From an uncultured Eubacteriales bacterium (GTDB lineage Bacteria > Bacillota > Clostridia > Oscillospirales > Acutalibacteraceae): 37,290 nucleotides of DNA. Below the pieces are notes generated by a model. It did no database searches, was not told the origin of the DNA, and saw only the letters and a list, made by a program, of their open reading frames with translations. Where the stretch lies: assembly GCA_900315195.1 (NCBI GenBank), contig OMYD01000048.1, positions 1 through 37,290 on the forward strand, given 5' to 3'. Below are positions 7,031 to 21,457 of this stretch, in pieces. Every line of letters starts with the position of its first letter. Within the stretch, counting starts at the first letter, position 1. The position numbers were made by a program, and so were the translations under genes.

Positions 7031-8698
7031 TTAAATCTTAAACTCAGCTATAATTTTCTGAATGGTTGTAATATCCTGAATGTCGATTTTTTTATCGCCG
7101 TTAGCGTCGGCAATTTTGAATTCTCTGGGGTTGTCCACATCAACAATCGGGCTGCCGTCGGATTTTTTAAACTCAGCAAGAAAGCGCTGCAGAATTGTAG
7201 CATCTTCAACATCGATAATTCCGTTGCCGTTGAGGTCGCCTACCAATACTTCAGGCTCATCATCGTTATAGAGTACTACAACCTCGCTCGCGGCAATTTT
7301 ACCCGTCAGTTTTCCGTCCTTAACCGTGAATTTATCTCCGCTGACCTTATCGGTGTATTCGCCGTCGGCAAGAGAGGTGTTTACGTTTACATTGTTTTCG
7401 TTATCCGAAACACTTACGATTACCGCGCCCTTGTTGCCGCGCTCAATCATGTTGACCTTATTCTTAACAACCTGAACAACGTTTTTACTTTCGCCGATCA
7501 TTGCGTTGCGGAACTTGTTTACCGCAACTACCTCATCACTGTAGTAGTTGCCGTTGCCCGCGAGTCCGATAGTGTTATCGCCCCACTGGTTTTCGGTGTT
7601 GCTTCCCTGAGGACGCGCGAAAAACAGGGGAGTGGTGTCACCCTGCGCGGCAATGATTGCCCAGCCTTGCTGTATTTGCTTGTCGTCAAGAATTTTCCAT
7701 GTGCTGCTGCCATCTTTACAGAAGTTGTCGTGCGACTCAACCCATGTAACAAGACGTCCGGGATCAATGTCGCTCATTTCTTCGTCATAAGCGCGGTAGT
7801 TCTTAACAGCAGCTACAGATAGTTTTTTCTTTGAAATTGCGTTTTGCAGATTTGAGCCATAGGCTTCCGCCGTTACATGCATCATTTTTGCGTAAGCGCC
7901 CATTCTGTCGCCGCCTGAAAGAATTTCGCCGTACTGGAACTCGGCGCTGTTATTTAGGACGGTAGGCCAGAAGTTACCCGCGTACTTGGAATCGTCATCT
8001 GGAAGCTCAATGTGCTTTGCGGCGTCAAAACGGAAGCCGTCAGCGCCGTCCGAAAGAACGGTTGTCATGTAGTCAACAATCATCTGCTGAACTGCGGGGT
8101 TCTGGGTGTTGAGGTCCCACAGACCGGTAAGCTTGCCTTGGGTAACCTGATAGCGGTTTGACCAGTCGCTGATTTCAACTCTGTCGTGGAACGCCTTGCC
8201 GCCAATGGTCTTGACATGGCTTGAGATAACGCTGTAGTCTGATGAACAATGGTTGGCAACGATGTCGACGATTACCTTAATACCGTATTTGTGAGCTTCA
8301 TCGCACATGTCTTTAAATTCGTCCTCAGTGCCAAGCATATAGTTGCCGATTGTGTAGTCGGTGGGCTGGTACTGGTACCACCAGTTGCCCTTATTTGTGC
8401 TTTTAAGCGACATTTTTCCGCCGTCACCGATTTTAACTTGGTTAATAGGTGAGGTCTGAATCGATTTAAAACCCGCCTGCGCAATCTTGGGAATGTTATC
8501 TTTTATGTTTTTAAAGCTCCAGGTCCAGCAGTGAAGTATAGCGCCGTCCTCGATTTTGTCGGGAAGATTGTTGGACTGTGCCGCTGCGGCGCCGGATTCG
8601 GAATCAGCAGCGCCCGCGGTAGTTGAAAACGCCAGTGAGCTGAGCGCCATAACAGCGGTCAGAACAACTGAAAAACTGCGTTTAAACGTCTTTTTCAT
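7031..8698 (-). CDS. Secreted GH13 alpha-amylase with C-terminal dockerin
   Basis: Extracellular starch-degrading enzyme of 555 residues. Residues 1-31 form a signal peptide (basic MKKTFKR start, hydrophobic core, cleavage near TAGA-ADSE). The catalytic barrel resembles Bacillus AmyE (GH13 subfamily 28 by recalled motifs): nucleophile D225 in DGFRFDAAKH, acid/base E258 in FQYGEIL, and D324 in WVESHD. Residues from about 485 to the end form a type I dockerin with two calcium-binding F-hand repeats (DLNGNGIIDVEDA and DANGDKKIDIQDI), so the enzyme should dock on a cohesin-bearing scaffold, as in amylosomes. AAGGAG sits upstream of the ATG. It lies 21 bases downstream of the DUF308 gene and ends at a strong terminator. 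The scaffoldin is not in this window. Confidence 0.95.
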   Translation of the reverse strand: MKKTFKRSFSVVLTAVMALSSLAFSTTAGAADSESGAAAAQSNNLPDKIEDGAILHCWTWSFKNIKDNIPKIAQAGFKSIQTSPINQVKIGDGGKMSLKSTNKGNWWYQYQPTDYTIGNYMLGTEDEFKDMCDEAHKYGIKVIVDIVANHCSSDYSVISSHVKTIGGKAFHDRVEISDWSNRYQVTQGKLTGLWDLNTQNPAVQQMIVDYMTTVLSDGADGFRFDAAKHIELPDDDSKYAGNFWPTVLNNSAEFQYGEILSGGDRMGAYAKMMHVTAEAYGSNLQNAISKKKLSVAAVKNYRAYDEEMSDIDPGRLVTWVESHDNFCKDGSSTWKILDDKQIQQGWAIIAAQGDTTPLFFARPQGSNTENQWGDNTIGLAGNGNYYSDEVVAVNKFRNAMIGESKNVVQVVKNKVNMIERGNKGAVIVSVSDNENNVNVNTSLADGEYTDKVSGDKFTVKDGKLTGKIAASEVVVLYNDDEPEVLVGDLNGNGIIDVEDATILQRFLAEFKKSDGSPIVDVDNPREFKIADANGDKKIDIQDITTIQKIIAEFKI

Positions 8699-13919: not shown

Positions 13920-14623
13920 CAATACTTGCTATGGACACCTCGGCAAAAGCAGCGTCAGTCTGTCTTGCGAGCGAGGACAAAATAATCGGCGAGTTTTTCA
14001 TAAACACATCGCTCACGCACAGTCAGACGCTTGTTCCAATGGTTGAACAGCTCTGCAAACAATCGGATGTCCCGATGGAGAATATCGAGGCTGTCGCCAT
14101 CAATGCGGGTCCGGGCTCTTTTACGGGAGTCAGAATCGGCGTAGCGGCAGCAAAGGGAATCGCTTTTCAACAAAATCTGCCATGCGTATCGGTTTCAACT
14201 CTTGAGAGCATGGCGTATAATATGCTTGGCAGCGACTGTGTCGTCTGCGCATTGATGGACGCGCGCTGCTCTCAGGTATATAACGCTATGTTCCGTGTGA
14301 AAAGGGAGAGTGTCGAGCGACTCTGTGACGACAGAGCGATTTCCATGACGGATTTGAAGCTTGATTTGCAAAAATACACCGATAAAGTGGTGTTTGTCGG
14401 TGACGGGGCTCATATAGCGTTTAAAAGCCTTGAAAATTTGCCTGAGAACGTTTTTTTGGCGCCGATGATTAGAATCACTCAAACGGCTGCTTCCGTCGCG
14501 TGCGCGGCGTTTAAACAGATAAATGAAGGAAATACGCTCACGCCTGCCGAGCTTATGCCTGTATATCTCAGGCTGCCGCAGGCACAGCGTGAGCTTAATA
14601 AGAAATTGGGGGTTACAAAATGA
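13916..14623 (+). CDS. tsaB: TsaB, tRNA threonylcarbamoyladenosine biosynthesis protein
   Basis: ASKHA-fold pseudoprotease of 235 residues that scaffolds TsaD and TsaE. The N-terminus ILAMDTSAKAASVCLA and the motif INAGPGSFTGVRIGVAAAKG near residue 62 are diagnostic. The neighbouring rimI or tsaD found in many genomes is not here; rpiB follows instead, with a four-base ATGA overlap. Tight packing with tsaE suggests coupled translation. Confidence 0.93.
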   Translation: MTILAMDTSAKAASVCLASEDKIIGEFFINTSLTHSQTLVPMVEQLCKQSDVPMENIEAVAINAGPGSFTGVRIGVAAAKGIAFQQNLPCVSVSTLESMAYNMLGSDCVVCALMDARCSQVYNAMFRVKRESVERLCDDRAISMTDLKLDLQKYTDKVVFVGDGAHIAFKSLENLPENVFLAPMIRITQTAASVACAAFKQINEGNTLTPAELMPVYLRLPQAQRELNKKLGVTK

Positions 14624-15069
14624 TAGCACTTGGCTGTGATCACGGCGGCTATAATCTTATGGTCGCAATTAAAAAGTATCTCAATAAAAACAACATTGAG
14701 TATAAGGACTTCGGCACCGACAGCACCGAAAGCGTAGATTATCCGGTGTATGCCTACAAGGTAGCCAAGGCGGTTACCGAAGGCGGCTGTGAACTCGGTA
14801 TTCTCTGCTGCGGTACGGGAATAGGAATCTCAATGGCTGCTAATAAGGTAAAGGGCGTTCGTGCCGCGGTTGTAAACAACGAATTCGGAGCTGAGATGAC
14901 ACGCCGCCACAACCATGCCAATATTCTCTGCATGGGCGGCAGAGTAATAAACGAGGATCAGGCGGTAAAATTCACCGACATTTTCCTTAACACCCCGGAG
15001 GAAGGTGACCGCCACGACAAGCGCGTTGCCATGATAACCGCTATTGAAAATGGCACCTTTAAGGGCTGA
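14620..15069 (+). CDS. rpiB: Ribose-5-phosphate isomerase B
   Basis: Interconverts ribose 5-phosphate and ribulose 5-phosphate in the non-oxidative pentose phosphate pathway. The 149-residue protein shows IALGCDHGGY at the start, the catalytic cysteine in CCGTGIGISMAANK near residue 67, and MTRRHNHANILCMGGR near residue 90, all RpiB signatures. A GGGGG-type ribosome binding site lies inside tsaB, and the four-base overlap indicates coupling. It is the last gene of the fhs-tsaE-tsaB-rpiB unit. Confidence 0.95.
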   Translation: MIALGCDHGGYNLMVAIKKYLNKNNIEYKDFGTDSTESVDYPVYAYKVAKAVTEGGCELGILCCGTGIGISMAANKVKGVRAAVVNNEFGAEMTRRHNHANILCMGGRVINEDQAVKFTDIFLNTPEEGDRHDKRVAMITAIENGTFKG

Positions 15070-15087
15070 AAACTAAATATATAATAC

Positions 15088-15113
15088 AAACGCACCGTTA
15101 AAATGGTGCGTTT
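15088..15113 (+). terminator. Intrinsic terminator after rpiB
   Basis: Nine-bp stem AAACGCACC/GGTGCGTTT around an 8-base loop, followed by TTCTTTTTTATT. It ends the fhs-rpiB unit. Confidence 0.9.
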
Positions 15114-15122
15114 TCTTTTTTA

Positions 15123-15227
15123 TTGTATATTGTAACCATATTGTAATCTTTTGTAGTAATTTCGGCAAAATCACTCTGTTTTTAACATTATTAACAATCT
15201 TTAACAAAAAAACGAAACTTTTTAACA
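15123..15227. other. AT-rich intergenic DNA with helically phased short repeats
   Basis: Part of the 454-base gap between rpiB and the XRE gene. TTGTA occurs at 15123, 15130, 15141 and 15151, and TTAACA at 15182, 15191, 15201 and 15222, so most copies lie 9-11 bases apart, or two turns apart for the last. Repeats on one DNA face can be binding sites for a multimeric regulator, but AT-rich DNA yields such words by chance. No reading frame with a ribosome binding site was seen in this gap. Confidence 0.35.
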
Positions 15228-15385
15228 CAATCAACAAGCTTCCACAAAGGATAATAAACTATAAAATTTGCACTAATAAAGTTCCTGATACGAATAATAT
15301 ATAAGAATAGTATACAACAAATATGGCTTTTGTAACTAAATTCGGTAAAAAATTTCATTTTTTTAAATTTATTTACAAAAAGGGG

Positions 15386-15414
15386 TTGTTTTTTTTCTTA
15401 TAAAGTATTATAAT
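15386..15414 (+). promoter_or_regulatory. Candidate promoter of the small XRE gene
   Basis: TTGTTT at 15386-15391 and a perfect TATAAT at 15409-15414 with a 17-base spacer. The resulting leader of about 100 bases contains a perfect 6-bp hairpin GGAGAA/TTCTCC at 15458-15473. Confidence 0.6.
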
Positions 15415-15523
15415 ATACCCATAATGTTCTTGAAGAATTTTAATAAAGAATTTTTTTGGAGAATTATTTCTCCGTTTATTGAAATTCAAAAGAAGAAGTA
15501 AAGCAATATGGAGAGAGTAAAAA

Positions 15524-15772
15524 ATGAGATTACGCAAACAAGAATTAGGAGATAGAAATCTGGTAGGCAACCGCGTGGAGCTTGTCAGAAAACAAAAGGG
15601 TATGAAGCAAAAAGAATTGCTTGCACAGCTTCAGGTCAACGGCGTTGATATGAACGCTTCGGGACTTTCCAAGCTGGAGGGGCAAATCCGTTTCGTAACA
15701 GACGTTGAGCTGGTTGCCCTTGCCGATATCCTCGAGGTTTCGGTTGACTACCTTCTTGGAAGAGAAAAGTAA
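15524..15772 (+). CDS. Small XRE-family (Cro/C1-type) transcriptional regulator
   Basis: An 82-residue protein that is almost all helix-turn-helix domain. NRVELVRKQKGMKQKELLAQL spans helices 1-2, ASGLSKLEGQ is the recognition helix region, and it ends with the usual VDYLLGR motif. GGAGAG precedes the ATG at 15524. It is a single-gene unit with its own promoter and terminator, so autoregulation is plausible. Its targets cannot be seen; the phased repeats upstream and the large RNA unit downstream are the nearest candidates, which is inference only. Confidence 0.85.
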   Translation: MRLRKQELGDRNLVGNRVELVRKQKGMKQKELLAQLQVNGVDMNASGLSKLEGQIRFVTDVELVALADILEVSVDYLLGREK

Positions 15773-15783
15773 TTTTCATCTGA

Positions 15784-15805
15784 TAGAGAGCTGCTCGGCT
15801 CTCTA
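15784..15805 (+). terminator. Intrinsic terminator after the small XRE gene
   Basis: Perfect 8-bp stem TAGAGAGC/GCTCTCTA with a 6-base loop, followed by TTTTTACTTTAT. Confidence 0.9.
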
Positions 15806-15861
15806 TTTTTACTTTATAGGAATACTTTTGTTTAAAGTAGGGGATTATATAAAAAAACAAG

Positions 15862-15886
15862 GCCGCCGGGCATAGTTCCCGACGGC
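15862..15886. terminator. Second terminator-like hairpin
   Basis: Nine-base arms GCCGCCGGG/CCCGACGGC with one mismatch and a 7-base loop, T-run on the plus side (TTTTAT) and A-run on the other, so it could work in both directions. It lies between the XRE terminator and the promoter of the RNA unit, with no obvious minus-strand gene to end. Confidence 0.6.
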
Positions 15887-15982
15887 TTTTATACACTCTC
15901 GTACTTATTATTATATCACTATATAAAATCAATTGCAATAGTTTTTTCAAAAATAAAAATTTATTTATTTCTATAAAAAGTA

Positions 15983-16010
15983 TTGACAATGTTAAAATCT
16001 ATGGTATAAT
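15983..16010 (+). promoter_or_regulatory. Near-consensus sigma-A promoter of the large RNA unit
   Basis: Perfect TTGACA at 15983-15988 and perfect TATAAT at 16005-16010, 16-base spacer. This is the best housekeeping promoter in the window. The expected transcript starts near 16017 and runs to the terminator at 16600-16622. Confidence 0.85.
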
Positions 16011-16395
16011 ATAGACAAAGATAAGACAAAGCAAGGAGGTCTTCCAGATGAAAGTTAAGATTTTTCAAATCAGAGCTATTAAAGATTTCATTCGGAGCTT
16101 ACCCCCCAATGTAGTATCCCAAAGCTTTTGGGTAAAGGGGAACGGATCTTATTAAGTCAGATCAGCTAATCATTTTATTGTTATTAAAACATACTTTTTG
16201 AATTTGGATTAAGACTCGTATCTGTAGCAGGGAAAACAGGAACACAAATCAACTTTCATTTTTTGATATATTAGTTTTCCCGCCTTGGTAAGAAACATTC
16301 CGGCGAACTTAAAAGTGTTTGGGAATCGTTGGATTACTTACAATTTAATATCGAATTACTTTCTACTTATAGTGGAACATTTCATCTCGACGACA

Positions 16396-16571
16396 GGAGA
16401 TTAGTCCCATGAGAAGTTTAAGCTTTTAACCGATTATTCTACGAAACCGGAGAAGGTCCAATGTAATACTTAATTGTTTAATCGGAACATTCTAAGCAAA
16501 GCGAGGATTATTCCCATGTACACGGTAAGGACGATTTAGATATTCCAGTAGTAATTGGAGTGAGTCCCAAG
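16396..16571 (+). repeat. Four degenerate tandem units (about 53 nt) within the large RNA
   Basis: The pattern GGA, 4-8 bases, TCC, then CATG/AATG/CAAG recurs at 16396, 16449, 16505 and 16557 (spacings 53, 56 and 52). Each GGA/TCC pair can form a small stem. The 3' part of several units shares ATTC(T/C)A, and GGAACATT occurs at 16373 and 16482, about two units apart. A fifth instance of the small motif lies at the 5' end (GGA at 16035, GATG at 16047). Confidence 0.55.
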
Positions 16572-16599
16572 TATAGTTTAATTTGAAAGTAAAAATTAA

Positions 16600-16622
16600 G
16601 GCCGGCAAGTGCACTGCCGGCC
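16600..16622 (+). terminator. Terminator of the large RNA unit
   Basis: Perfect 8-bp stem GGCCGGCA/TGCCGGCC with a 7-base loop, tail TGTAATTTTG. It directly follows the closing helix of the RNA. Confidence 0.8.
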
Positions 16623-16668
16623 TGTAATTTTGCTCCTGCACATGATTGTAAATCATAAACACTATGAA

Positions 16669-16696
16669 AAAGCACCGCCTAAAAAGACGGTGCTTT
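16669..16696 (-). terminator. Terminator of the phosphoglucomutase gene
   Basis: Perfect 9-bp stem AAAGCACCG/CGGTGCTTT with a 10-base loop and a TTTT run on the minus-strand exit side. It lies 39 bases past the stop codon of the mutase gene. Confidence 0.8.
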
Positions 16697-16734
16697 ACTA
16701 TTAACAAGAATTAATTACTGCGGGATTTTACGGC

Positions 16735-18462
16735 TTACAAACCGAGAATCTCTTTTGCGGAATTAACAAGTGTTTCGCAAACGTTGAGGGCTTCTTCTTT
16801 TGTTTTGCCTACAGCCGTCACATACAGCTTGATTTTTGGTTCGGTACCGCTGGGACGGATGATAACCGCGTTGTCGTTCTCAAGGTTCAGCGCGATAACA
16901 TTTGAGGTGGGGAGGGAGATGCGCTCAACCTTGCCTGTCAGCAGGTCGGTTTCCTTTTTAAGCTTGTAATCGCTTACCTTAACAACCTTGTAGCCTCCGA
17001 CAGCGTCGGGAAGGTTATCTCTTACGGCAGACATCATGTCAGCCATCTTCTGCATGCCTGTCTCGCCCTTAAACTCAAACGCGTAGGTCTGGTTAATATA
17101 ATAGCCAAACTCCTTATACAGTTCGTCAATTACCTCAGCGAGCGACTTGCCCTGCTTCTTATAGTATGCAGCCATTTCGGCAATCAGCATGGAAGCAACA
17201 ACGGCATCCTTGTCTCTTACATATGTGCCGGCAAGATAACCGTAGCTCTCCTCAAAGCCAAACAGATAGCGGTTTTCCTCGCCTTTCTGCTCCAAACCGA
17301 GAATAATCTCGCCGATGTATTTAAAGCCTGTCAGTACGTTTTTAAGTTCGCAGCCGTACTTATCACACAGTTTGTTAATAAGCTTAGTCGATACGATTGT
17401 CTTTACAACTACAGGGTTTTCGGGCAGAGTGCCTGCGGCCTTTTTACAGGAGAGAATGTAGTTTGTCAGCATTACTCCATCTTCATTACCGGTAATCAGG
17501 CGGTATTTGCCTTTGTTCTCGCCGTAGTCGCGGACGGCAATACCAACTCTGTCAGAGTCAGGGTCTGTAGCAAGCAGTAAGTCAGGCTGTACGGTTTCAC
17601 ACAGGTCAAGACCCATCTGCAAAGCTTCCTTCTTTTCAGGGTTGGGGTAGGGGCAGGTGGTAAAGTTTCCGTCAGGCAGTTCCTGCTCTTTAACGATTGT
17701 AACGTCCTCAACGCCGATATTTTTAAGAACCTTTCTTACAAGCTTATTGCCGCAGCCGTTGAGAGGAGTGTAAACAACTTTAAGGTCAGAGCCCTTGCAG
17801 ATACCCGGGTTAACCTGCTGTTCCATAACCTTTTCAAGATAGCTTTCGTATACGCTGTCATCAACATATTCAATCATGCCTGACTTAAAAGCCTCATCAA
17901 AATCTCCTACCTTGACATCCTTGAACATGTCAAGCTTCTGAATTTCGTCATAAACCGCTGCTGCGGCGTTGTCAGTCATCTGGCAGCCATCCTCGCCGTA
18001 AGCCTTATATCCGTTATATTCAGCGGAATTGTGGCTTGCGGTAACCATAATACCCGCCTGACACTTAAAGTAGCGCACAAGGTAGGAGAGAACAGGCGTG
18101 GGCTGAAGCTCACTTGTGATATAGACCTTAATTCCGTTGGCGGCAAGTACCTTGGCGGCCTCAATCATAAACAGGTCAGCCTTGATTCTGCTGTCATGCG
18201 AAATAGCTACGGCGCCCTTGCCGTATTTTGCGAGAACATAATTAGCCAAGCCCTGAGTAGCCTGACGTACTACGTAGATATTCATGCGGTTAGTGCCTGC
18301 GCCTATAACACCTCTTAATCCTGCGGTGCCAAACTGAAGCGCGGTATAGAAACGGTCGCGGATCGCCTCATCATTTCCTTCAATATTTTTTAACTCCTCA
18401 ATTAAATCTGTATCATCTTTCGCGTTTTCAAGCCATTCGGAGTAAAGCTTTTTTTCATCCAT
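16735..18462 (-). CDS. pgcA: Phosphoglucomutase/phosphomannomutase, alpha-D-phosphohexomutase family
   Basis: Interconverts glucose 1-phosphate and glucose 6-phosphate, and possibly the mannose esters, linking glycolysis with glycogen and envelope sugar synthesis. The catalytic phosphoserine is in MVTASHNSAEYNGYK near residue 140, the magnesium site is DPDSDRVG near residue 300, the sugar-binding loop is FGFEESYGY near residue 395, and the phosphate-binding RPSGTEPKIK is near residue 540. The start at 18462 (MDEKKLYSEW) is preferred because AAGGGG lies nine bases upstream; the ATG at 18471 abuts that site with no spacer. The length of 575 residues is normal for the Firmicute PgcA type. Confidence 0.93.
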   Translation of the reverse strand: MDEKKLYSEWLENAKDDTDLIEELKNIEGNDEAIRDRFYTALQFGTAGLRGVIGAGTNRMNIYVVRQATQGLANYVLAKYGKGAVAISHDSRIKADLFMIEAAKVLAANGIKVYITSELQPTPVLSYLVRYFKCQAGIMVTASHNSAEYNGYKAYGEDGCQMTDNAAAAVYDEIQKLDMFKDVKVGDFDEAFKSGMIEYVDDSVYESYLEKVMEQQVNPGICKGSDLKVVYTPLNGCGNKLVRKVLKNIGVEDVTIVKEQELPDGNFTTCPYPNPEKKEALQMGLDLCETVQPDLLLATDPDSDRVGIAVRDYGENKGKYRLITGNEDGVMLTNYILSCKKAAGTLPENPVVVKTIVSTKLINKLCDKYGCELKNVLTGFKYIGEIILGLEQKGEENRYLFGFEESYGYLAGTYVRDKDAVVASMLIAEMAAYYKKQGKSLAEVIDELYKEFGYYINQTYAFEFKGETGMQKMADMMSAVRDNLPDAVGGYKVVKVSDYKLKKETDLLTGKVERISLPTSNVIALNLENDNAVIIRPSGTEPKIKLYVTAVGKTKEEALNVCETLVNSAKEILGL

Positions 18463-18548
18463 CAATGTCATCCCCTTAAAAATACTATTATTATTTTATA
18501 AAACAAGCATTTATACGGATATGCCTATTCAAATATTAATATAACACA

Positions 18549-18657: not shown

Positions 18658-19803
18658 TTAGTAATCATCAAGAGCATTCAGAGTGTTTACGTCTTCCTTG
18701 ACCTCTATCTTTTGTTTGTTTTTTATCAGATAGTCGCAGTAACGTTCAAGCTTGTCAAAATAATCGGACGCCTTATCCCATTTTGCCTTTTGTTCGTCAT
18801 TCAGTTTATCGGGAACAATGTTGTATTTGTCACGTATAAGACTTCCCAGATACTTTGTCATCTTAGCTGAGCCGTAAATATTCATATGGTCGTAGTTATA
18901 GAAGTCGGTTTTCGGGTCAAGTCCGACTTTTTTCCAATCGCGTTCAAGGTTAATGTAATCATATCCGTAGCTGTTGATTATTTCACCCGCGCGGTTGGAG
19001 CGCTTTACTCGGTCAAATGTAGCTCTGTATACTAAATGAGGAACACGCGTAAATACAACGTTAAGATTTTTTTCCTTGCAATAATCAAGAAGCTCTCTTA
19101 GTTCTGACTCAAGCAAGGGGTTAAGAGCAAGGGTTCTCTCTTCGTTTACAATCTTTTCGTTAAGAATCTTCTGCGGAGGATTAAATATATTTGTAGTGGT
19201 TCTAAAGCCTTTTAAGTAAGAGCCTCCGCGGTTATCCTGGTTAAGCTTTGAAACTACCGAGCGCATCTGTCCCGGATATTCCTTCCACAGATCATGATAT
19301 TTTATCAGCGGAATAAAGTACTCAAGTCTTTTGTCCGGTTCAATATATTCATTGACAAAATCTATTTTGTTTTGATTAAAAGGAACACTGTCAATAAGCT
19401 TGCGTATATGACCCTCAATACCTTCGTTTTTCTTTTCCATATATAAAAAGGCGTTAACCTCAATGACTATTAGCTGAGGACTTTGTGTTCTAACAACCTC
19501 TTTAAGCGCTGTAAGCATTCCCGAAGCTGTAATTGACTGGGTTGCGTAAGGATAGCTCGTAAAACCGAACTCCTTATATGCGCGTCCTGAAGCAAAGCTT
19601 GTGTAAACGTCACTTGCTCCCATCATTACAACATCAAGAGAGTCAGTGTCCTCCATATAATAGCCTTCCATACGAAGACTGTTTTGGTCGATTCTGCGAA
19701 GAAGCAGGTTGTTCATGAGCAAAAGCGACATGAGCAGAGCCAGAAAAAAGCTTGTCAGCTTAACTGTACGTGTAATATATAGTTTATTTCTTTTCTTATT
19801 CAT
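18658..19803 (-). CDS. Membrane-anchored SGNH-like protein of the dlt-like operon (DltD/AlgJ-like)
   Basis: A 381-residue protein with a basic N-terminus, one hydrophobic anchor at residues 14-35 and a large extracytoplasmic domain. MMGASDVYTSF near residue 60 resembles the SGNH/GDSL block with its nucleophile serine, and YDHMNIYGSAKMTKYLG near residue 315 supplies the Asp-x-x-His pair. It therefore looks like the DltD or AlgJ/AlgX partner that works with an MBOAT protein to pass acyl groups to a surface polymer. It is the last gene of the operon, starting 19 bases after the MBOAT gene. The exact acceptor is not known. Confidence 0.75.
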   Translation of the reverse strand: MNKKRNKLYITRTVKLTSFFLALLMSLLLMNNLLLRRIDQNSLRMEGYYMEDTDSLDVVMMGASDVYTSFASGRAYKEFGFTSYPYATQSITASGMLTALKEVVRTQSPQLIVIEVNAFLYMEKKNEGIEGHIRKLIDSVPFNQNKIDFVNEYIEPDKRLEYFIPLIKYHDLWKEYPGQMRSVVSKLNQDNRGGSYLKGFRTTTNIFNPPQKILNEKIVNEERTLALNPLLESELRELLDYCKEKNLNVVFTRVPHLVYRATFDRVKRSNRAGEIINSYGYDYINLERDWKKVGLDPKTDFYNYDHMNIYGSAKMTKYLGSLIRDKYNIVPDKLNDEQKAKWDKASDYFDKLERYCDYLIKNKQKIEVKEDVNTLNALDDY

Positions 19804-19822
19804 AATATACCGAAAAACTCAA

Positions 19823-21457
19823 TTAGAATTGCATATATACGAAGCTTGCGGCGTCATAGCCTGAGCCGTATACACCGAATACAACAACTGCTATAATACC
19901 GGCATAAAGCAGAAGAAAGCGAAGCGCAAAAGGCTTTTCGTCAAGCTGGACACGAAGGCTTTTTTCGGGATTGCGTTCCTGCATTATGCTTACAAACAGA
20001 ATTATTGCAGCACCTATTGATATTACGCAATAGTCAAGTGCGTCAAGTTTTAATCCGCTTATCTGATTGTAACCTGTAATAAAATTCTGGTTCGTAAAAA
20101 ACATTGCAATTGTCTTTACGCCCTGAATGAACGATGGCGCAACATCGAAGACATATCCTACAAGCACAATTAAAAACGTGCGGAACATGGCAAAAAGGCT
20201 GTACCACCAGCATTCGCGGCGGATATGCAGCTTGTTGATAATACTGTCAAATATCGGCTGAATAAGGATACTCAGCATGATGATAACGCCGTTCCACGCG
20301 CCGAATGCTACATATTTCCAGTAAGCGCCATGCCAAATACCGACAAGCAAAAATACAATAAGCGAGGCGACACTGGTAGGAAGCACCTTTGAAATGTGAG
20401 TTCCGGCAGCAGTTTTGCCAAAGCGCGTACCCTTCATTTTTTTGCTGGCGTTAAGGAATACGTTGGACATAGCGATGGGGTAGAACACATAGTTTTTCAT
20501 CCATCCGCCAAGCGATATGTGCCATCTGCGCCAGTATTCATTGATTGATTTTGAGAAGTACGGCCGCTTGAAGTTCTCCATCATATCTATGCCGAAAATC
20601 TGACATACGCCGCGCGAAATGTCAATACCGCCCGAGAAGTCAGCGTAAAGCTGCAAAGCGTAAAGCAGAATTGTGAACGTCAGCGTGGTTCCGTTGTATT
20701 TGTCGTAGCCTGCAATAACGGTGTTAATAGCGATTACCGCGCGATCCGCGATAACAAGCTTTTTGAAGAAGCCCCAAAGGATAAGTTCCATACCGTGCTT
20801 AACACGGGTAAAATCGAACTTATGAGGCTCGTAAAGCTGGTGGGCAAGTTGGTCGTAAATACTGATAGGACCCTGGATGATCTGCGGGAAGAACGAAACA
20901 AAAAGCAAAAGCTTTAAGGGGTTCTTCTGAGGAGGGGTTTTTTCACGGTAAACGTCCACAATGTAGCCCATTGACTGGAAGGTATAGAACGAAATACCCA
21001 GCGGCAAAAACAGTTTTAGCGTCGGAGCCGACATGCTGAATCCGAAACTGCCGAGAATGTCATTTAGGCTGCCCGCGAAGAAGTTATAATACTTCAAAAA
21101 CGCCAGAATGCCGAAGTTGATTACAAGGGCAAGCGTCATTATTAGGCGCTTCTGCACCTTTATTTTGTTTTTATACGCCTTTTTTTGGTTTCTGTCCCAT
21201 TCGCTCTTTTTTGCCTTGAGCAAAGCCTTGGATTTGTTTGAAACATGCTGAATCCAAAGGGCTATAAGATATGTATTGAGCGTTGTGAAAAGAATGAAAA
21301 AAGCGAATTTGTATCCCGCTACAGCGTAGAAGAATATGCTGGCAACAAGAAGGATCGGCCACTTGCATTTCTTTATCGGAAGCGCAAAGTAAAACAGCAT
21401 TGTAGCCAACACAAAAAAGATAAAATTCAGTGAGGTGTAGGATATATTGAAAAGCAA
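19823..21457 (-). CDS. MBOAT-family membrane acyltransferase, DltB/AlgI-like
   Basis: Polytopic membrane protein of 544 residues. The catalytic histidine lies in GIWHGAYWKYVAFGAWNG near residue 370, and INEYWRRWHISLGGWMKNYVF near residue 310 is the MBOAT signature. DltB moves D-alanyl groups from carrier DltC across the membrane, and AlgI moves acetyl groups; here the adjacent carrier protein favours a DltB-like mechanism. The start is TTG at 21457: AGGAG sits eight bases upstream and no in-frame ATG fits. It starts 18 bases after the decarboxylase gene. Confidence 0.88.
   Translation of the reverse strand: MLFNISYTSLNFIFFVLATMLFYFALPIKKCKWPILLVASIFFYAVAGYKFAFFILFTTLNTYLIALWIQHVSNKSKALLKAKKSEWDRNQKKAYKNKIKVQKRLIMTLALVINFGILAFLKYYNFFAGSLNDILGSFGFSMSAPTLKLFLPLGISFYTFQSMGYIVDVYREKTPPQKNPLKLLLFVSFFPQIIQGPISIYDQLAHQLYEPHKFDFTRVKHGMELILWGFFKKLVIADRAVIAINTVIAGYDKYNGTTLTFTILLYALQLYADFSGGIDISRGVCQIFGIDMMENFKRPYFSKSINEYWRRWHISLGGWMKNYVFYPIAMSNVFLNASKKMKGTRFGKTAAGTHISKVLPTSVASLIVFLLVGIWHGAYWKYVAFGAWNGVIIMLSILIQPIFDSIINKLHIRRECWWYSLFAMFRTFLIVLVGYVFDVAPSFIQGVKTIAMFFTNQNFITGYNQISGLKLDALDYCVISIGAAIILFVSIMQERNPEKSLRVQLDEKPFALRFLLLYAGIIAVVVFGVYGSGYDAASFVYMQF

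Follow-up and report, generated by a model that had tools for sequence, protein, structure and literature searches.

What kind of gene occupies the roughly 600 nt between an xre-like gene and a convergent pgm gene in this window (the whole 37,290-nt stretch of DNA analysed, whose numbering is used throughout)? The preliminary description took it for a large structured RNA with its own sigma-A promoter and a strong terminator, without a convincing protein, possibly of the ROOL class and otherwise of a new family. Judged by comparison of its homologues, the conserved content of this gene is largely a set of translation signals, namely a stalling-type small open reading frame (sORF) followed by tandem candidate minigenes, and not an ornate fold.

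The transcription unit itself stood as first described. Its promoter, TTGACA-16-TATAAT at 15983-16010 on the plus strand, matches the consensus at 12 of 12 positions and is the sole such site among the 10 promoter-like sites found in 14000-18500 at the 9-of-12 level, a number that is not above that of shuffles (mean 9.3). TTGACA...TATAATATAGACAA is kept in homologues, as is a terminator-like hairpin. From the promoter position, the RNA probably starts near 16017 (+); the intrinsic terminator recognized by a terminator scan at 16599-16623 (+) has a GC-rich stem of 9-10 bp, and the predicted RNA, counted from 16017, is ~614 nt long, close to the ~610 nt proposed earlier. Since the hairpin is terminator-like on both strands in that scan, it may also serve the convergent pgm gene, and it is probably common to the two. 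From 83 distinct 5′ units extracted, three non-homologues (L135, L136 and L141) were dropped; terminator-like hairpins were placed in 75 of the remaining 80, and the removal of three miscalled ones left 72 units, with 47 representatives less than 80% alike. On this comparative evidence the transcription unit looks real and conserved among relatives, and it is single-copy in the source genome. The region between the xre-like gene and the RNA gene also holds a minus-strand promoter-like site (15938-15910; 10/12, TG-extended); no more than 25 nt further on, a hairpin strongly resembling a terminator lies on that strand (15886-15862).

ROOL (RF03087) was rejected as an identity for this RNA, having given no covariance match either at gathering score or at E ≤ 10. 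Rfam returned no family at gathering scores over the whole window, by which GOLLD, OLE, raiA and the other Rfam 15 families were rejected as well, and the 19 sub-threshold matches obtained at E ≤ 10 in 15770-16740 include none of ROOL, GOLLD, OLE or raiA. On 15 homologous loci, no family fell on the RNA, and elsewhere in those loci only 6S RNA and tRNA were found. A ROOL search of 161 congeneric genomes gave 0 matches, but control genomes were silent too, so that this result is not evidence alone. Phages and prophages are the carriers of ROOL, which in many cases lies close to tRNA islands (PMC12286853). There is no tRNA in the window, and the neighbours of the RNA gene are xre-like, pgm and TrkA-like genes, which is not the phage or tRNA-island setting of ROOL. 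With ROOL, GOLLD and OLE the gene shares a length near 600 nt and an unknown function, and ROOL has been found in the rumen (PMC12286853); it differs from them in its lack of Rfam matches, the absence of its 5′ pattern from viral contigs, its unremarkable folding energy, and its conserved sORF and start sites. The idea of a new family therefore survives as far as conservation and the absence of an Rfam match are concerned, but the family is of another kind than had been envisaged, made mostly of translation signals.

The RNA gene was detected by BLAST in 56 of the 161 congeneric genomes. R1, a sequence-only model built on the 5′ 127 nt of the RNA, found it in 80 of the 161 at 54 bits or more, with the next match only at 34 bits; the larger tally of 148/161 at E ≤ 0.01 adds to these 80 only weak matches of ~20-34 bits. 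In a sample of 398 genomes of the family, no genome of another genus exceeded 34.1 bits with R1, which is background level, and the tally of 115/398 at E ≤ 0.001 again consists of weak matches. Searches over more than 40 genomes used stricter filters, with the loss of some weak matches. The host genus of the 161 genomes includes Ruminococcus bromii, and an exact-pattern scan of 84,980 named species yielded 51 stretches, a lower bound, among them R. bromii YE282, 5AMG and ATCC 27255, Ruminococcus sp. FMBCY1, and many uncultured Ruminococcus or Clostridia assemblies. Viral contigs gave 0 matches to the exact 5′ pattern, and a phage origin was rejected on that ground. There is usually one copy per genome; a second strong match occurs in two genomes only, G059, which has two divergent copies (L046 and L047) at separate loci, and G075, in which strong R1 matches lie on two contigs. 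The copy L175 in G121 (contig C7; 34 bits) lacks the -10 element and the Shine-Dalgarno (SD) sequence between TTGACA and the sORF ATG, and is apparently a natural broken copy of the gene.

The earlier statement that the unit holds no convincing protein fails, because a sORF at 16048-16155 (+) shows protein-level selection. It encodes the peptide MKVKIFQIRAIKDFIRSLPPNVVSQSFWVKGNGSY* and is led by a perfect SD, AAGGAGGT, at 16033-16040 (+), which is kept in homologues and forms an anti-SD duplex with a median of -12.4 kcal/mol (45 homologues). The homologues share a layout of promoter, AAGGAGG-like SD and start codon, and their ORFs are 20-35 codons long. The core is typically IKDxxRSLPPN (RSLPPN at 16093-16110 in the window): in the 79 units with a complete core, it starts with IKD in 60 and ends with RS[LF]PPN in 78. 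The stop codon follows 0-14 residues past PPN, and the C-terminal extension is variable. Mean codon-position entropy of the 67 distinct cores is 0.35, 0.29 and 1.17 bits at the first, second and third positions, the third being free to vary. Over these 11-codon cores, pN/pS is 0.20 in frame versus 1.66 and 3.98 in the other frames, a value biased low by the extraction pattern, which fixes some codon positions 1 and 2 of RSLPP. Outside the pattern, pN/pS is 0.32 for the five codons before RSLPPN (1.01 and 1.32 in the other frames) and 0.51 for nine codons (1.28 and 1.40). Omission of the 11 units obtained by pattern scan changed pN/pS little, with values below 1 in frame only, and the pattern was matched by 80 of 80 units, so that none was lost to it. 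These substitution patterns indicate that the sORF is under protein-level selection.

A conserved peptide may suggest a plain peptide gene, in which the product of 20-35 aa is the effector (a signal, toxin or antitoxin) and the rest a long 3′ UTR. The conservation of IKDxxRSLPPN speaks for it, but there is free variation past PPN and weaker conservation ahead of the core (the nine codons above), no signal or transmembrane segment is seen by eye, the downstream modules are conserved too, and neither Pfam nor NCBIfam gave a match for three of the peptides. We consider this explanation very unlikely. The conserved core has another meaning if ribosomes pause on it. PPN is listed as a strong stalling triplet, with upstream R or K strengthening arrest and S or L just before PP weakening it (PMC5811046), and pausing at PPN is relieved by EF-P or its paralogue (PMC11611912); EF-P is encoded in the source genome. 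As in arrest peptides, a conserved stretch, which would lie in the upper tunnel, runs up to PPN (a motif treated in PMC11611912 and PMC5811046) and is followed by variable ends. In sequence, then, the nascent chain is conserved up to a stalling motif, at which arrest is predicted.

The 72 units come in two forms. The long form (49 units, 498-1272 nt) encodes mostly MK... peptides, and the short form (23 units, 316-561 nt) encodes ML... peptides and, by eye, is without most of the 5′ domain. Downstream of the RNA lies a convergent pgm in 21 of 75 loci, confirmed by Pfam in the window, and a TrkA-like gene, named by eye, in 12; upstream lies an xre-like gene in 10 of 75, and in 11 more the upstream ORF resembles an antisense frame of that stretch. 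Mechanically called ORFs of at least 80 codons are convergent in 39 of the 49 long-form loci with a downstream ORF, and the next ORF after short-form RNAs is often on the same strand. Neighbour genes differ between clades.

TnaC and SecM are arrest or leader peptides with proline stalling, and the usual role of SD-led stalling leader peptides is to control a gene located downstream. The whole unit might accordingly be a long leader that regulates or attenuates the next gene, as the typical role of such peptides and the same-strand ORFs of the short form would have it. A leader controls a downstream gene of the same transcript; here, a terminator-like hairpin stands between the RNA and the next gene, the downstream ORF is convergent in the window and in most long-form loci (the pgm cluster accounting for the 21 of 75 loci mentioned), and each clade tends to have its own neighbour. 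Since neighbours vary by clade and a terminator intervenes, the RNA gene does not appear to be a leader, an explanation that we hold to be extremely improbable, and in having no regulated downstream gene it is unlike arrest leader peptides.

The upstream neighbour in the window, an 82-aa xre-like protein (15524-15772, +; named by eye, no Pfam match at 1e-5), was matched in 139 of the 161 congeners at E ≤ 1e-8, with 86-100% identity over nearly the whole length in almost all, 100% in more than 20, and weak paralogues at ~40% identity in a few. In seven genomes without a strong RNA match, the xre gene has a different downstream neighbourhood, with no SD-led PPN peptide there. Regulation by the adjacent xre-like gene was rejected, because many xre-bearing congeners are without the RNA and the adjacency looks incidental. 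Elsewhere in the window, the minus strand encodes an alpha-amylase catalytic domain with a type I dockerin (7031-8698), consistent with the amylosome of R. bromii, and, at 18658-21457, an MBOAT O-acyltransferase gene; the 381-aa ORF that comes after it has no Pfam match at 1e-5, and we guess that the two may form a cell-surface acetylation pair.

Downstream of the sORF, a small element of the form GG[AU]G-N4-6-[AU]CC-[ACG]-AUG is repeated, 2 to 7 times per RNA. In its summary form, GGAG-N-UCC-A-AUG, an SD-like GGAG lies ~9 nt before the AUG, within a small GG..CC hairpin. The window's copy has, all on the plus strand, module 1 at 16396-16429 (GGAG, UCCC, AUG AGA AGU UUA AGC UUU UAA; MRSLSF*, AUG at 16409), module 2 at 16449-16466 (GGAG, UCC and the start-stop AUG UAA, AUG at 16461), module 3 at 16503-16539 (GAGG, UUCCC, AUG UAC ACG GUA AGG ACG AUU UAG; MYTVRTI*, AUG at 16516), and a terminal module at 16557-16571 (GGAG, GUCCC, AAG) without a start codon. 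Its AUG modules have 6, 1 and 7 codons, two of the three being longer than two codons; in the window's own clade, modules 1 and 3 likewise close only after 6 and 7 codons. An AUG UAA module occurs in 26 of 36 long-form representatives, and the module 3 peptides of close relatives are MYTVRTL*, MYKVRTL* and MYTLRTL*, with UAG, UGA or UAA as the stop. A minigene consists of an SD, an AUG and, only a few codons on, a stop in the same frame, and this is what the module sequences contain. Read out of frame, the PPN codons of the sORF (16094-16114) also form a module-like start-stop, GGAG...AUG UAG, though not in all homologues.

Most of these modules are closed after a short distance. Among the 148 module AUGs of the 47 representatives, 30 meet an in-frame stop with no sense codon between, 62 after at most one and 112 after at most two, versus a stop within two codons in 48/148 (frame 1) and 13/148 (frame 2) in the other frames; among non-module AUGs of the same RNAs the figure is 72/302 versus 112/148 (Fisher 4e-26), with p values for modules overstated because representatives below 80% similarity are still related. 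Some of the frame bias could reflect an RNA motif in which AUG and UUAA lie at a fixed distance, frame 1 being enriched too (48/148), and the gap in anti-SD energy between module AUGs and others is partly circular, as modules are defined by a G-rich upstream. When defined by the 5′ flank alone, 207 modules were found in 75 unclustered units, with ATG in 163, AAG in 31, GTG in 6 and other triplets in 7, some of which are probably chance matches. The first in-frame T[AG][AG] after these is TAA in 89, TAG in 38, TGA in 15 and TGG in none, versus 4.0 TGG expected under independence of the two positions. Stops are also swapped between relatives, L168 having ATT TGA where L171 has ATC TAG, and the module-AUG-to-stop distance varies in whole codons; these two are examples of the arrays that are expanded in some species, with MC* MR* MR* MF* MI* at the end of L168 and MR* MC* MR* MF* MI* in L171.

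The same modules carry marks of constraint on the RNA. The third stem pair, in 134 modules, is A-U in 54, A-C in 23, U-A in 16, A-A in 15, G-C in 14, G-U in 4, U-U in 4 and others in 4. The A/U exchange is non-random (A-U 54, U-A 16, A-A 15, U-U 4; Fisher, n = 89, p 3e-6), although this pair is evidently not required, since A-C is the second commonest state. The AAG module is found by a strict pattern, which some of its flank variants escape, in 30 of 72 units and in 0 of the short ML-peptide form; it keeps its hairpin, often together with a downstream UACAGUUAA, which suggests that modules have some RNA-level role without initiation. Together, the terminal AAG module and the RNA-level stem indicate that modules matter as RNA too, and they keep alive a reading as a new structured noncoding RNA, in which the GG..CC-AUG modules are protein- or RNA-binding sites, their AUGs and stops are unused, and only the 5′ sORF is translated.

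What is known of the fold bears on that reading both ways. The inner helix noted in the preliminary description (16230-16237/16274-16281, extended by 16227-28/16282-83, +) gained covariation support: in 16 close homologues, own arms pair with a mean of -12.9 versus -8.5 kcal/mol for swapped arms (z -6.4, 0/20,000 permutations), in a test that is alignment-free. When columns were counted in a MAFFT alignment of 15 sequences, this helix was not above shuffles (67/500 for cells paired, 83/500 for covariation score), because its arms slide between sequences. The pairing of the 5′ and 3′ ends (16063-16079/16573-16588), also proposed before, found no such support (own-vs-swapped z -1.1; 2,622/20,000), and its 5′ arm falls within the sORF. 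For the 5′ domain, a first own-vs-swapped test gave 222/20,000 (27 representatives), and a double-centred test over the whole arm gave 27, 150 and 45 of 20,000 at three clustering levels; the value of 27, from 22 representatives, concerns the arms flanking the small hairpin at 16178-16193 and indicates modest covariation. By part, the double-centred test gave 431 to 912 of 20,000 for P1 and nothing for P2. That small hairpin, UUGUU..AACA (+), at the centre of the 5′ domain, has an outer pair that is U-A, A-U or G-C in homologues, and a hairpin directly after the PPN codons, CCCAAA-GCU-UUUGGG at 16118-16132 (+), has paired changes in L017, CCCGAtGCTttCGGG, both by eye. RNAalifold on MAFFT alignments gave nothing or the small hairpin only, because the 3′ arms do not align. 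Folding energy is unremarkable for the whole RNA (z -1.06; 3/20 shuffles as good) and no better than shuffles for the 5′ domain (mean z +0.2, 27 representatives), and hence lends structure no thermodynamic support.

The large structured RNA first proposed thus holds as a transcription unit in which one helix or more covaries. As for the noncoding reading, module-stem exchange and the covarying helix show RNA-level constraint, the terminal module keeps the rest of the motif without AUG, and the number of modules varies between 2 and 7 per RNA, as that of binding sites does. Unused AUGs and stops are harder to reconcile with a start that, outside the terminal AAG class, varies mainly to GUG (6/207, with 7 others), with stops that swap among TAA, TAG and TGA without TGG at distances of whole codons, and with a 5′ domain that folds no better than shuffles. 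We therefore regard the noncoding reading as unlikely.

The loop of the covarying helix contains AACUUUCAU (16251-16259, +), the exact complement of the sORF start AUGAAAGUU. CTTTCA is present in 18 of 25 representatives with an ATGAAAG start and in 0 of 9 without it, and a permutation test of this anti-start pairing was not significant (z -1.0); the element is a possible anti-start element, to be taken as a lead.

A promoter, a sORF, a structured body and a terminator are also the architecture of dual-function small RNAs. S. aureus RNAIII is one such RNA, with its own promoter and terminator, a peptide and an RNA body, and SR1 is built likewise with a small peptide. The gene may accordingly be a regulatory RNA of this kind, whose peptide has its own job and whose body pairs with target mRNAs or acts as a sponge for RNA aimed at start regions, which the modules mimic. 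By comparison alone, an independent transcript with a conserved small peptide is indeed present, but module loops vary, leaving little continuous seed, and in contrast to SR1 and RNAIII the gene has a peptide that ends near a stalling motif and a body made up of arrayed start sites, is confined to one genus in the genomes searched, and has no target that is known. A CsrB/Rsm-type sponge for CsrA is unlikely, CsrA not being found in the 96% complete source genome by a search that matched 3 of 14 controls. Overall, we find a dual-function regulatory RNA quite unlikely.

The modules find closer counterparts in known minigenes. The bar minigenes of phage lambda, axe-txe mg2 and the EHEC LEE1 leader all have SD-led ORFs with one or a few codons, but as single elements in a leader or phage transcript, whereas in the RNA gene 2-7 AUG modules make up a gene of their own that has no cistron after it. 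Drop-off and toxicity are reported to be greater for minigenes that have a strong SD, few codons and UAA; SD-bound ribosomes can stabilise mRNA, and minigenes act in cis on mRNA (PMC8708949).

Because the conserved blocks outside the 5′ domain are translation signals, ribosome loading is the simplest purpose common to them. We propose an independent RNA gene, a "micro-polycistron" that would load and hold ribosomes, in which a strongly led sORF is followed by an array of small GG..CC start modules and a terminator. Comparison supports this anatomy well, whereas the mechanism is an inference from it, and the proposal as a whole stands at even chances in our estimation. Ribosomes entering at the sORF would pause at R-S-L-P-P-N, a stalling motif of the EF-P-dependent kind; others would initiate on the minigenes, to be held there or to drop off as fMet-, fMet-X- or fMet-X-X-tRNA. 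The RNA may then trap ribosomes and initiator or peptidyl-tRNA in a manner sensitive to translation, or may itself be stabilised by those ribosomes. The upstream domain would tune loading, its loop being able to pair with the sORF start in some clades. A more specific version, which we put forward tentatively as possible rather than probable, is an autonomous ribosome-trapping RNA. Instead of a protein or a folded noncoding RNA, its gene would produce ribosome-loading sites in tandem, and these (one PPN arrest ORF and the start-stop or few-codon minigenes) would titrate ribosomes, initiator tRNA or specific peptidyl-tRNAs according to the state of translation.

An open-access literature search on minigene arrays, start-stop RNAs and R. 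bromii noncoding RNAs yielded nothing comparable, and the word Ruminococcus is absent from the main text of PMC8040213 and PMC8632094. All evidence for the architecture is comparative. To our knowledge, no described RNA is a stand-alone array of SD-led minigenes. If ribosomes use the module sites, these would be bacterial genes that act by occupying the translation machinery, and they would bear on ribosome hibernation, peptidyl-tRNA drop-off and the biology of EF-P. Even with the AUGs unused, a conserved RNA family absent from Rfam 15 would remain. R. bromii is a keystone starch degrader of the human gut, and such an RNA would, if the proposal is true, be present in this gut and rumen bacterium. 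The comparisons suggest that the function of this RNA in R. bromii and its relatives is the capture of ribosomes and not the making of a protein.
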